DNA of 22,052 nt from a virus, in the IMG/VR virus record IMGVR_UViG_3300031951_007186, positions 1-22,052 of that record; one strand, given 5' to 3'. Positions 185 through 2,699 of this stretch are shown here, one piece after another. Below the pieces are notes generated by a model that was not told where the DNA came from, ran no database searches, and worked only from the letters and a program-made list of their open reading frames with translations. Every line of letters starts with the position of its first letter. Position 1 is the first letter of the stretch. The translations under genes were made by a program, and so were the position numbers.

Positions 185-257
185 GGTTCCTTAGCTCAGT
201 TGGCAGAGCAACTCCCTGTTAAGGAGAAGGTCCCAGGATCGTACCCTGGAGGAACCG
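185..257 (+). tRNA. tRNA-Asn(GTT)
   Basis: Acceptor GGTTCCT/AGGAACC, anticodon arm ACTCC-CTGTTAA-GGAGA, T-arm CCAGG-ATCGTAC-CCTGG. The T-loop starts with A54 and has T58. Discriminator G is followed by C. Confidence 0.93.
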
Positions 258-264
258 CTTTTAT

Positions 265-336
265 TGTGGGGTAGAGCAGCGGTAGCTCGTCGGGCTCATA
301 ACCCGAAGGTCGTGGGATCGTAACCCACCCCCGCAA
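265..336 (+). tRNA. Initiator-type tRNA-fMet(CAT)
   Basis: Acceptor TGTGGGG/CCCCGCA. The anticodon arm TCGGG-CTCATAA-CCCGA carries the three consecutive G-C pairs that mark bacterial initiator tRNAs, and the D-arm plus anticodon arm closely resemble Escherichia coli tRNA-fMet. Position 1-72 is a weak T-A pair instead of the E. coli C-A mismatch. The T-loop is ATCGTAA (A54, T58). A separate elongator-type CAT tRNA lies at 778-849, which supports an initiator role here. Confidence 0.9.
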
Positions 337-351
337 CTCAGTTTTGAACTT

Positions 352-401
352 TTAGTCTTTGAGCATGAGCCGAACCAGTCAGTTAGCTGAGTAAAGACTA
401 A
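352..401 (+). ncRNA. Inter-tRNA hairpin element 1
   Basis: A perfect 9-bp closing stem, TTAGTCTTT (352-360) with AAAGACTAA (393-401), encloses 32 bases with a minor TCAG-TTAG-CTGA hairpin. The whole is tRNA-sized but has no anticodon arm or T-arm I can recognise. It lies between tRNA-fMet and tRNA-Gly. It could be a stable small RNA, a processing signal or a decayed tRNA. Confidence 0.5.
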
Positions 402-404
402 CCT

Positions 405-476
405 GCAGCACAAGCATTAGGGCTGATGTGCCGGTCTTCCAAACCGGAGAAGTTGGATCGACCCCAACGTGCTGCT
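405..476 (+). tRNA. tRNA-Gly(TCC)
   Basis: Acceptor GCAGCAC/GTGCTGC, anticodon arm CCGGT-CTTCCAA-ACCGG, T-arm GTTGG-ATCGACC-CCAAC with A54. Discriminator T is followed by C. Confidence 0.92.
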
Positions 477-481
477 CATCT

Positions 482-556
482 GCTCCCGTCGTCTACGTTT
501 GGCTAGGACATCTCCCTTTCACGGAGAAAAAGGCGGATCGACACCGCTCGGGAGTA
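482..556 (+). tRNA. tRNA-Glu(TTC)
   Basis: Acceptor GCTCCCG/CGGGAGT, anticodon arm TCTCC-CTTTCAC-GGAGA, T-arm GGCGG-ATCGACA-CCGCT with A54. Discriminator A is followed by C. Confidence 0.92.
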
Positions 557-561
557 CATGG

Positions 562-614
562 TGGGTTATGGATGATGACCGAACAGGTAGACTCATCACC
601 TACCTGGTAACCCA
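562..614 (+). ncRNA. Inter-tRNA hairpin element 2
   Basis: A perfect 7-bp closing stem, TGGGTTA (562-568) with TAACCCA (608-614), holds a second perfect 7-bp hairpin CAGGTAG (584-590) and CTACCTG (600-606) with a 9-base loop containing CTCATCA. One base separates the two stems, so they could stack. It resembles a tRNA reduced to acceptor and anticodon stems, but there is no T-arm. It lies between tRNA-Glu and tRNA-Asp. Confidence 0.55.
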
Positions 615-622
615 GCTTATTT

Positions 623-698
623 GGTCTGTTAGGGGAGTCTGGTCGTCCCCGCTTCCCTGTCACGGAAGAGATCACGGGTCCAAATCCCGTACAGACCG
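623..698 (+). tRNA. tRNA-Asp(GTC)
   Basis: Acceptor GGTCTGT/ACAGACC, anticodon arm CTTCC-CTGTCAC-GGAAG, T-arm ACGGG-TCCAAAT-CCCGT. The T-loop has C55 where a uridine (pseudouridine) is expected. Discriminator G is followed by C. Confidence 0.92.
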
Positions 699-705
699 CA
701 AACAT

Positions 706-765
706 GTTAGGATGCAAGTACACTATGCTTAATTCACCTGCACTGTGAAAGGGAAGAGTCCTAAC
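706..765 (+). ncRNA. Inter-tRNA hairpin element 3, T-armless tRNA-like
   Basis: A perfect 7-bp stem, GTTAGGA (706-712) with TCCTAAC (759-765), contains a 5-bp arm TTCAC-CTGCACT-GTGAA (733-749) with a 7-base loop. Read as an anticodon loop this gives GCA (Cys), but position 37 would be C, which is unusual. Only nine bases join this arm to the acceptor-like strand, so there is no T-arm. A normal tRNA-Cys(GCA) exists at 2247. It could be a degenerate tRNA or a distinct small RNA. Confidence 0.5.
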
Positions 766-777
766 CTCTGTTTACTT

Positions 778-849
778 TGACTCGTAGCTCAGTGGTAGAG
801 CAGGTTGCTCATAACAACAAGGTCGGTGGATCATCCCCACCCGAGTCAA
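778..849 (+). tRNA. tRNA-Met(CAT), elongator type
   Basis: Acceptor TGACTCG/CGAGTCA, anticodon arm with GTTG-CTCATAA-CAAC, T-arm GGTGG-ATCATCC-CCACC with A54 and T58. It lacks the GGG/CCC initiator signature, so an elongator is likely. A tRNA-Ile2 with modified CAT cannot be excluded, although a tRNA-Ile(GAT) follows. Confidence 0.88.
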
Positions 850-854
850 CTTAT

Positions 855-926
855 ACTCTCGTAGCTCAATGGTAGAGCATCACACTGATACTGTGAGGGT
901 AGGTGGATCGTTACCACCCGAGAGTA
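855..926 (+). tRNA. tRNA-Ile(GAT)
   Basis: Acceptor ACTCTCG/CGAGAGT, anticodon arm TCACA-CTGATAC-TGTGA, T-arm GGTGG-ATCGTTA-CCACC with A54 and T58. Discriminator A is followed by C. Confidence 0.93.
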
Positions 927-933
927 CATACAC

Positions 934-1009
934 GGGGACCGGGTCTGCCAGGAGTGGACACCAAGCTTGCACCTTGGACATCAGCTGGATTCGAGTTCCA
1001 GGGTCTCCA
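934..1009 (+). tRNA. tRNA-Ala(TGC)
   Basis: Acceptor GGGGACC/GGTCTCC, anticodon arm CCAAG-CTTGCAC-CTTGG, canonical T-arm CTGGA-TTCGAGT-TCCAG. Discriminator A is followed by C. Confidence 0.92.
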
Positions 1010-1020
1010 CAAAAAAATAT

Positions 1021-1855: not shown

Positions 1856-1864
1856 CAAAAACTT

Positions 1865-1895
1865 TTTGGTAGTTCTACAAAAAGTTGTATATTTG
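1865..1895 (+). promoter_or_regulatory. Bacteroidetes-type promoter P2
   Basis: TTTG at 1865-1868, a 19-base spacer and TATATTTG at 1888-1895. The spacer holds a short palindrome GTAG-TT-CTAC. It lies within the tRNA array and precedes the 28-aa reading frame at 1953. Confidence 0.75.
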
Positions 1896-1952
1896 TATTG
1901 TAGATCCCGTCAAGCCTCTTACATAGTAACGTAACGGTGATATTAGACAAAC

Positions 1953-2039
1953 ATGAAGAAGTTCCAACATACACAGTTTACCCAGTTCCCCACTTGTCCA
2001 GAGTGCGAGGGTAGTGTATGTCTGTGTCCGAAAGATTGA
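1953..2039 (+). CDS. 28-aa cysteine-rich microprotein
   Basis: A 29-codon frame starts at ATG 1953 after GACAAAC and ends in TGA. The product begins MKKF. Its C-terminal half has CPEC at residues 15-18 and CLC at 23-25, four cysteines spaced like a minimal zinc knuckle. It has its own promoter (1865-1895) and terminator (2062-2097), so the transcript appears dedicated to it. It sits between tRNA-Trp and tRNA-Pro. The function is unknown; RNA binding is a guess from context. The four-cysteine pattern and isolated transcription unit argue for a real gene. Confidence 0.55.
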   Translation: MKKFQHTQFTQFPTCPECEGSVCLCPKD

Positions 2040-2061
2040 CATAGGTTTTAAAAGATACATG

Positions 2062-2097
2062 AACCCTCAGCTCGAAAGATCTGAGGGTTTTTTATTT
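2062..2097 (+). terminator. Intrinsic terminator of the P2 transcript
   Basis: AACCCTCAG (2062-2070) pairs perfectly with CTGAGGGTT (2081-2089), followed by TTTTATTT. It ends just before tRNA-Pro. Confidence 0.92.
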
Positions 2098-2171
2098 CTA
2101 GCTGTAGTTCAGCCCGGTAGAATGCGTGGTTTGGGACCACGAGGTCGTCTGTTCGAGTCAGACCAGCTAGA
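2098..2171 (+). tRNA. tRNA-Pro(TGG)
   Basis: Acceptor CTAGCTG/CAGCTAG, anticodon arm CGTGG-TTTGGGA-CCACG, canonical T-arm GTCTG-TTCGAGT-CAGAC. Discriminator A is followed by C. Confidence 0.93.
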
Positions 2172-2180
2172 CGGAATCAC

Positions 2181-2241
2181 ACTACCTCCGGTTTGAGAGG
2201 AGGGTTACCGTGAGTGTTACCTCTAGGGTGTTTACACGGTA
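2181..2241 (+). ncRNA. Inter-tRNA hairpin element 5, possible pseudoknot
   Basis: TACCGTG (2206-2212) pairs perfectly with CACGGTA (2235-2241). Just upstream, CCTCC (2185-2189) pairs with GGAGG (2199-2203). An ACACT near 2180 can also pair with AGTGT at 2213-2217, giving a pseudoknot-like alternative. It lies between tRNA-Pro and tRNA-Cys and shows no tRNA arms. Confidence 0.4.
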
Positions 2242-2246
2242 CTTAT

Positions 2247-2319
2247 GGTGGGTTAGCCAAGATGGTAAGGCGCGGGTCTGCAAAACCTGGATGCGAGGCT
2301 TCGAGTTCCTCACCCACCT
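2247..2319 (+). tRNA. tRNA-Cys(GCA)
   Basis: Acceptor GGTGGGT/ACCCACC, anticodon arm CGGGT-CTGCAAA-ACCTG, canonical T-loop TTCGAGT. The T-stem pair 53-61 is C-T in place of the conserved G-C. Discriminator T is followed by C. Confidence 0.9.
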
Positions 2320-2326
2320 CTAAGGC

Positions 2327-2394
2327 TATAAGGACGCCTGATCAGCTATGGTTCCCCCTAGTGTGGGTGTGAACGTACCGACAAAGTCCTTATA
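2327..2394 (+). ncRNA. Inter-tRNA hairpin element 6
   Basis: A perfect 9-bp closing stem, TATAAGGAC (2327-2335) with GTCCTTATA (2386-2394), encloses 50 bases with a GTTC (2351-2354) and GAAC (2371-2374) stem topped by CCC/GGG. It lies between tRNA-Cys and tRNA-Phe. It is tRNA-sized, but no anticodon or T-arm is recognisable. Confidence 0.5.
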
Positions 2395-2397
2395 ATT

Positions 2398-2470
2398 GGT
2401 GCAGAAGCTAACTTGGTAGAAGCACAGGTCTGAAAAACCTGGGGAGTTGGATCGTAACCAACCTGTACCA
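2398..2470 (+). tRNA. tRNA-Phe(GAA)
   Basis: Acceptor GGTGCAG/CTGTACC, anticodon arm CAGGT-CTGAAAA-ACCTG, T-arm GTTGG-ATCGTAA-CCAAC with A54 and T58. Discriminator A is followed by C. Confidence 0.93.
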
Positions 2471-2477
2471 CATACAA

Positions 2478-2549
2478 GCCTCTTTAGTTAAACTGGAAAA
2501 ACAACTGCCTTGTAAGCAGAAGTTACCGGGTCGGTTCCGGTAGGAGGCT
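2478..2549 (+). tRNA. tRNA-Thr(TGT)
   Basis: Acceptor GCCTCTT/AGGAGGC, anticodon arm CTGC-CTTGTAA-GCAG, T-arm ACCGG-GTCGGTT-CCGGT with G54. Discriminator T is followed by C. Confidence 0.92.
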
Positions 2550-2551
2550 CT

Positions 2552-2620
2552 GTGAAGTGACGCTGCAGGTGTGGCGGACTGATTGTGGCTCAGTTGAGAC
2601 GGATCGATACCGTACTTCAC
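2552..2620 (+). tRNA. tRNA-His(GTG), compact
   Basis: Acceptor GTGAAGT/ACTTCAC, D-stem CGCT/GGCG, anticodon arm ACTGA-TTGTGGC-TCAGT, T-loop ATCGATA (A54) on a T-stem of only four clear pairs (ACGG/CCGT). G2552 with C2620 may be the G-1:C73 pair that identifies tRNA-His. The gene is a few bases shorter than usual. Confidence 0.85.
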
Positions 2621-2628
2621 CCTTATCT

Positions 2629-2699
2629 TCCCGTTTTGCATAATGGTAGTGCACGAGGTTTTGGCCCTCGTAGTAGATGTTCGATTCATCTAGCGGGAA
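2629..2699 (+). tRNA. tRNA-Gln(TTG)
   Basis: Acceptor TCCCGTT/AGCGGGA, anticodon arm CGAGG-TTTTGGC-CCTCG, canonical T-arm AGATG-TTCGATT-CATCT. Discriminator A is followed by C. It is the last tRNA of the array. Confidence 0.92.

Follow-up and report, generated by a model that had tools for sequence, protein, structure and literature searches.

The U54-A58 pair of the T-loop is regarded as nearly universal, and it is said to anchor the transfer RNA (tRNA) elbow. The full T-loop of the eukaryotic initiator tRNA reads A54-U55-C56-G57-m1A58-A59-A60 (m1A, 1-methyladenosine). In the suppressor-tRNA selections of Zagryadskaya, Doyon and Steinberg in 2003 (NAR 31:3946), G54-G58 and G54-A58 reportedly mimicked the U-A reverse Hoogsteen pair, and A54-U58 is said not to have been among the selected variants. 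The occurrence of A54 with A58 in the eukaryotic initiator tRNA is documented (PMC7912444). In the papers checked, tRNA-cleaving defences target the anticodon loop, and the phage escapes reported there concern that same loop (PMC10264068, PMC11555353). Here we describe a tRNA array in a 22,052-base stretch of viral DNA (the window; IMG/VR record IMGVR_UViG_3300031951_007186), in which most of the tRNAs lack T54 and a recurrent T-loop combines A54 with T58.

The tRNA array and its T-loops

The array contained 22 tRNA genes between positions 29 and 2700, all on the + strand, and the T-arms of all 22 were located letter by letter. Thirteen of the 22 departed from the canonical T54-T55-C56-R57-A58 loop (R, purine) and its U54-A58 pair by the absence of T54: ten carried A54 and three G54, while T54 was kept in nine. 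By position 58, the ten A54 loops comprised six with T58, three with A58 and one with G58. A first-pass annotation of the window had reported that the majority of the array lacked T54, with ten loops beginning ATC, six of them with T58, and three beginning GTC, namely Leu(TAG), Ser(TGA) and Thr; the T-arm reading reproduced all of these counts. Its list of seven canonical loops left out two further T54 loops, those of tRNA-Arg(TCT) with G56 and tRNA-Asp with C55, and the array, which it had started at 185, begins at 29. The genes were as follows.

A54 loops
185-258, +, tRNA-Asn(GTT): T-loop ATCGTAC (238-244), A54-T58
265-337, +, tRNA-Met(CAT), initiator-like (fMet): T-loop ATCGTAA (317-323), A54-T58
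405-477, +, tRNA-Gly(TCC): T-loop ATCGACC (457-463), A54-A58, C60
482-556, +, tRNA-Glu(TTC): T-loop ATCGACA (537-543), A54-A58-A60; not reported by ARAGORN but recovered with the tRNA covariance model
778-850, +, tRNA-Met(CAT), elongator: T-loop ATCATCC (830-836), A54-T58
855-927, +, tRNA-Ile(GAT): T-loop ATCGTTA (907-913), A54-T58
1354-1438, +, tRNA-Leu(TAA): T-loop ATCATAC (1418-1424), A54-T58
1598-1684, +, tRNA-Ser(GCT): T-loop ATCAGGG (1665-1671), A54-G58, G60; missed by ARAGORN, acceptor and anticodon arm read by eye
2398-2471, +, tRNA-Phe(GAA): T-loop ATCGTAA (2451-2457), A54-T58; orthologue in L498 also A54-T58
2552-2621, +, tRNA-His(GTG): T-loop ATCGATA (2603-2609), A54-A58-A60; missed by ARAGORN, arms read by eye

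G54 loops
1270-1348, +, tRNA-Leu(TAG): 6-nucleotide T-loop GTCGAA (1330-1335), G54-A58; missed by ARAGORN, arms read by eye
1500-1591, +, tRNA-Ser(TGA): T-loop GTCGGGT (1572-1578), G54-G58
2478-2550, +, tRNA-Thr(TGT): T-loop GTCGGTT (2530-2536), G54-G58; identical loop in L498

T54 loops
29-182, +, tRNA-Arg(ACG) and tRNA-Arg(TCT): TTCGATT and TTGGAAT (G56), respectively
623-699, +, tRNA-Asp(GTC): TCCAAAT, with C55
934-1010, +, tRNA-Ala(TGC): TTCGAGT
1690-1856, +, tRNA-Tyr(GTA) and tRNA-Trp(CCA): TTCGACT and TTCAAAT, respectively
2098-2172, +, tRNA-Pro(TGG): TTCGAGT
2247-2320, +, tRNA-Cys(GCA): TTCGAGT; not the same gene as the A54 tRNA-Cys of L019 and L498
2629-2700, +, tRNA-Gln(TTG): TTCGATT

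Both T55 and C56 were present in all ten A54 loops, and the D-loop GG was seen by eye in most of these tRNAs. As read from the sequence, the cloverleaf and the docking residues of functional elongator and initiator tRNAs (G18G19, T55 and C56) appear to be in place. The Rfam gathering score was reached by 17 of the 22 tRNAs with the tRNA covariance model, Leu(TAG), both Ser, His and Asp-like cases being borderline. Five of the 22, none of them with T54, escaped ARAGORN and were identified by hand reading and T-arm location, except Glu, which was matched by the covariance model. Standard tRNA finders thus overlook genes of this kind, and phage tRNA counts may run too low.

Two of the T54 loops deviated elsewhere, with G56 in place of C56 in tRNA-Arg(TCT) (110-182) and C55 in place of T55 in tRNA-Asp (623-699), changes expected to perturb the docking on G19 and on G18, respectively. 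The gaps of the array also contained six stretches of tRNA size (352-401, 561-615, 706-765, 1062-1117, 1440-1495 and 2327-2394), closed by stems of 7-9 bp; none had a T-arm, and an Rfam search gave no family match. The stretch at 1440-1495 resembled an acceptor stem, a D-arm and a second arm, and that at 706-765 contained a hairpin of 5 bp with a 7-nucleotide loop.

To place the array among viral tRNAs, 118 viral loci were fetched with a tRNA pattern that left positions 54 and 58 free. In this neutral sample, ARAGORN found non-T54 in 24 of 697 tRNAs. A custom T-loop-neutral scanner gave 27 of 611, so that roughly 4% of the neutral viral tRNAs lacked T54; for the window it gave 9 of 15, a significant excess (Fisher p ~1e-8). 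With the same scanner, the non-T54 share of the window (60%) exceeded the highest share among the 24 neutral arrays of at least eight tRNAs (23%) and that among 78 arrays chosen for A54-T58 (42%), which made the window the most extreme of 103 arrays.

Covariation of positions 54, 58 and 60

The suggestion of the first-pass annotation that 54-58 resembles a swapped pair was upheld in the neutral viral sample, where T58 was present in 13 of 16 A54 loops and in 1 of the 681 remaining loops (p 6e-24). The 54-58 combinations counted by the scanner (n = 611) included 583 TA, 14 AT, 3 AA and 4 GG, with no TT. Watson-Crick pairing of 54 with 58 was rejected as a general rule, as GC occurred in 1 of 611 and CG once (Phe of phage Lbo-JY46). 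Position 60 changed as well: A54 with T60 was observed 2 times against 168 expected under independence, and T54 with A60 29 times against 158, numbers of which only the direction is safe because the set includes loci chosen for A54-T58. The residue at 60 thus appears as if barred from pairing with 54.

The rest of the molecule was retained. Stem pairing and G18G19 of the A54-T58 tRNAs were equal to those of the T54-A58 tRNAs, and G18G19 was present in 98% of the viral A54-T58 tRNAs. A search within isoacceptors for further positions changing with A54-T58 gave no convincing partner beyond 54, 58 and 60; its D-stem signals followed from the search pattern, and position 8 showed a mild excess of A.

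Relatives and the stepwise tRNA-Phe series

The window belongs to a crAss-like phage: the Crassvirus capsid family PF23898 matched at 14583-16208 (E 5.6e-32), the terminase and portal matched PHROG families, and the portal also matched crAss-like phages by tblastn, being 31.6% identical to that of Leptolyngbya phage Lbo-JY46. The Bacteroidota promoter form TTTG-N19-TAnnTTTG fitted exactly at two promoter-like stretches (1021-1051 and 1865-1895), and the host is therefore probably in the Bacteroidota. The leader promoters of the Lbo-JY46 tRNA array (PP438436.1, 118600-123300) had the same TTTG/TAnnTTTG form, yet the recorded host is a cyanobacterium, which raises the question of whether the true host might be a Bacteroidota companion.

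The first-pass annotation had held that related phages with ordinary T54 at these genes would speak against it. This was half borne out: almost every gene in the syntenic array of the distant relative Lbo-JY46 had T54, but the closer relatives L498 and L019 retained a remnant of the array together with A54-T58 (Cys ATCGTAA and Phe ATCGTTA in L498; Cys ATCGTAA in L019), and L498 also had Thr GTCGGTT. As judged from these sequences, A54-T58 is a lineage trait shared by the closer relatives, and the proposal is not refuted by the T54 array of Lbo-JY46. Terminase relatives (75-84% identity) were mostly without the array and had single T54 tRNAs only, with L019 as the exception, and a sequence pattern built on the fMet gene gave no matches. 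A tRNA-Ser(TGA) family with GTCGGGT (G54-G58) and the D-arm AAAGCAGCTACANNGGAGTGGCG was found in the window (1500-1591), Lbo-JY46 (L099), L453:1-130 and L454:490-590.

Between the orthologous Phe genes of the window and L498, the T-stem changed from GTTGG/CCAAC to GCTGG/CCAGC, a compensatory change, and A54-T58 was unchanged. Further Phe orthologues, gathered with a family-specific sequence pattern, had the T54 loops TTCGATT (L537) and TTCGAAA (L552) and the A54 loops ATCGAAA (L551 and L555), ATCATAA (L550), ATCGTTA (L538 and L498) and ATCGTAA (window). One tRNA-Phe family thus contained the stepwise series TTCGATT, TTCGAAA, ATCGAAA, ATCGTAA, and L537 and L551 were separated by three differences within the loop and by about two elsewhere.

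Occurrence in phages, bacteria and archaea

At least 120 viral stretches and at least 115 genome stretches carried A54-T58 tRNAs. The loop is spread over unrelated phages, since among 20 viral records checked that were A54-rich or bore an array, only one had the crAss capsid family. Among the genome matches listed (L220-L334), some lay in dense tRNA arrays and many were single chromosomal genes, the latter recurring by clade as His in Kiritimatiellae, Lys(TTT) in Alphaproteobacteria, Gly(CCC) in Bacteroidales, Thr(CGT) in Deltaproteobacteria/Myxococcales and Thr(TGT) in Hadesarchaea. The sole tRNA-His found in a Kiritimatiellaeota metagenome-assembled genome and the sole Lys(TTT) of a complete Kaiserbacteria chromosome were A54-T58, and the loop therefore very likely works in cellular translation. 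The probable host phylum did not share the loops at large: an A54-T58 tRNA of the searched form occurred in 1 of 295 sampled Bacteroidota genomes, the seed excluded, so that the first-pass proposal was not undone at phylum level by host tRNAs of the same kind. An open-literature search found no A54-U58 T-loop reported in phage or bacterial tRNAs, which is not proof of absence.

Leader peptides upstream of the tRNA sub-clusters

Sub-clusters of the array were preceded by a promoter in some cases, a short leader open reading frame (ORF) and an intrinsic terminator, and the encoded peptide was rich in precisely those amino acids that the downstream tRNAs serve. The units of the window and the leaders of other loci were as follows.

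1021-1348, first window unit, + strand tRNAs Leu-Leu-Ser-Ser-Tyr-Trp downstream: promoter 1021-1051, ORF MRKFTTTSSLSLYWLYKPIG 1131-1193, terminator 1231-1260
1865-2172, second window unit, Pro-Cys-Phe-Thr-His-Gln downstream: promoter 1865-1895, ORF MKKFQHTQFTQFPTCPECEGSVCLCPKD 1953-2039, terminator 2062-2089
Lbo-JY46 (L099): SLSLSLS before Leu, Leu, Ser; QHTQFWFPT before Pro, Thr, Phe, Gln, His
L498:5549-5750: CTTTFFCFW before Trp, Cys, Phe, Thr
L019:1171-1486: leader matching the Trp and Cys tRNAs
L454:116-300: SYSLSLSYSLS before Leu, Tyr, Ser, Ser, Leu
L103: SSSRSSS before Arg, Ser; KHKHFSKSSKWF before Lys, His, Phe, Trp
L111: PAAAARPWP before Pro, Ala, Arg, Trp

The first window peptide contained SSLSLYWLY, and the second contained QHTQFTQFPTCPEC. 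Two Bacteroidota genomes (L257 and L289) had the same arrangement, with matching amino acids, in their tRNA arrays, so that the leaders recur in several unrelated phages and in Bacteroidota-genome arrays. A single rule yielded 97 short-ORF/terminator/tRNA leaders, of which 16 passed an enrichment score, compared with a mean of 2.1 and a maximum of 8 in 300 shuffles; when hand-added tRNAs were excluded, 13 passed (permuted mean 1.95, maximum 7). Equilibrium folding with a ribosome mask gave only modest dips at the leaders because the terminators were very stable, and antiterminator complementarity was therefore tested instead. Leader segments showed complementarity to the 5' terminator arm with a mean z of -2.4 over 13 leaders, six of them with p < 0.05, a result that is supportive and not blind because the 13 were picked after the peptides had been seen. 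For the window, leader B was significant (p < 0.005) and leader A was not (p 0.15). The arrangement looks like trp-type ribosome-mediated attenuation, in which shortage of charged tRNA would control phage tRNA operons. An open-literature search returned no report of such attenuation of phage tRNA operons, and we know of none; the leader arrangement is possibly more important than the T-loop finding.

Interpretation and alternatives

We favor, with a probability of about 0.6, the reading that these are working phage tRNAs with a structure-preserving alternative T-loop, which would be independent of 5-methyluridine at position 54 (m5U54) and would reflect weakened selection for a modifiable U54-A58 pair. 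The loop class would be A54-U55-C56-R57-U58-N59-(A/C)60, with A54-A58-A60 and G54-G58 as two relatives. Given the covariation and conservation observed, a different contact between 54 and 58, whose geometry we infer, probably holds the elbow. The intermediates suggest a path from T54/A58/Y60 (Y, pyrimidine) through A60 and then A54/A58/A60, the loop of the eukaryotic initiator, to A54/T58/A60. By sequence, the 13 window tRNAs with A or G at 54 should not be substrates of the m5U54 enzymes TrmA and TrmFO: loops without T54 could not receive m5U54, and those with U58 could not carry m1A58. The accumulation of such loops in phage tRNAs most likely reflects the burst in which these tRNAs are made during infection: they would gain little from slow T-loop modification, and selection for U54-A58 would be weaker as a result, whereas selection for a folded elbow would persist. 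An exchange of the pair as a unit, with intermediates, offers a direct test of the 54-58 contacts that the ribosome and EF-Tu accept, and the natural A54-U58 set also tests whether m5U54 and m1A58 are needed.

Several observations weigh against this reading. A weaker need for modification would by itself leave the 13 of 22 in the window, compared with 0-2 in most arrays, unexplained; A54 clustered by contig in the neutral viral sample (p 0.01), which hints at a lineage-specific cause; and the sole-copy bacterial A54-T58 tRNAs show the loop persisting without a burst. A tentative alternative, less probable than the favored one, is that A54-U58-(A/C)60 may be a distinct heritable T-loop class of phages, bacteria and archaea, and that the window set became mostly T54-free under selection for independence or escape from host T-arm enzymes. 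The main rival, which we regard as unlikely, is positive selection for escape from host recognition of the T-arm, whether by a T-loop nuclease, by a toxin that modifies tRNA or by the m5U54 enzyme TrmA, so that phage tRNAs outlast attacked host tRNAs. The lineage-specific excess in the most extreme of the arrays, the confinement of the change to 54, 58 and 60 with 55-57 mostly retained, and the fit of leader-peptide control to a tRNA-shortage response agree with such an escape, as does the replacement of defence-cleaved tRNAs by phage tRNAs (PMC11555353, PMC10264068). In the papers checked, however, defence tRNases cleave within the anticodon loop and no T-loop-reading defence was found; nine tRNAs of the same array retained T54, and chromosomal bacterial tRNAs also carried the A54-T58 loop. 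The first-pass suggestions of nuclease escape or of recognition by a phage factor thus gained no support.

The remaining explanations were less probable. That one T-loop spread through the array, either by gene conversion or through gene duplication followed by a change of anticodon, would account for the GGATCGTAACC common to several loops and is improbable, as the isoacceptors were syntenic with T54 genes of Lbo-JY46, the loops differed at 57, 59 and 60 and the stems also differed, and the same loop series was found in orthologous Phe genes of other phages. Relaxed selection in a degenerating array could be read from the G56 of Arg and the C55 of Asp in two T54 loops, the 6-nucleotide loop of Leu(TAG) and the several tRNA-sized pieces without a T-arm. 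Yet the change in the array is better taken as a structural constraint because 54, 58 and 60 changed together, the stems, as good in A54 as in T54 tRNAs, and G18G19 were intact, and the orthologous A54-T58 Phe was kept with compensatory changes; the covariation largely refutes decay, which is quite improbable. The first-pass annotation, which had noted that unrelated isoacceptors share the change while their stems stay paired, had likewise preferred selection to decay. A cause at the DNA level, such as avoidance of GTTCGA or preference for GATC under restriction, methylation or integration, would fit the GATC that G53 and A54 create in every such gene; but GATC, TCGA, TTCGA, GGTTC and GGATC were near their Markov-expected counts outside the array, TTCGAA was low there in tiny numbers (2 versus 5.5), and the T58 and non-T60 changes would be left unexplained. 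Motif avoidance was rejected on these counts, and a DNA-level cause is very improbable.

Comparison with known systems

The first-pass annotation had regarded A54 as otherwise known from eukaryotic initiators, a view to be corrected, as A54 is not confined to them: it was seen in unrelated phages, arrays in bacterial genomes, and single bacterial and archaeal chromosomal tRNAs. The likeness to the eukaryotic initiator loop lies in A54 for T54 and A60 for Y60, and ATCGAAA, its loop letter for letter, was found in phage Phe (L551 and L555). Within the window, only Glu and His had the initiator-type A54-A58-A60; six of the other A54 loops had T58, Gly had C60, and Ser(GCT) had G58 and G60. The phage version differs in its occurrence on elongators of many isoacceptors and in that most go to U58, which is absent from eukaryotic initiators. 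We know of no cognate nuclease for the T-loop changes of phages. The tRNase-evading phage tRNAs (PMC10264068) resemble the present ones in their systematic changes at normally conserved sites, but those changes are in the anticodon loop and these in the T-loop. The variants from the suppressor-tRNA selections share G54-G58 and G54-A58 with Ser(TGA), Thr and Leu(TAG) of the window, whereas A54-U58 is here the commonest natural alternative.

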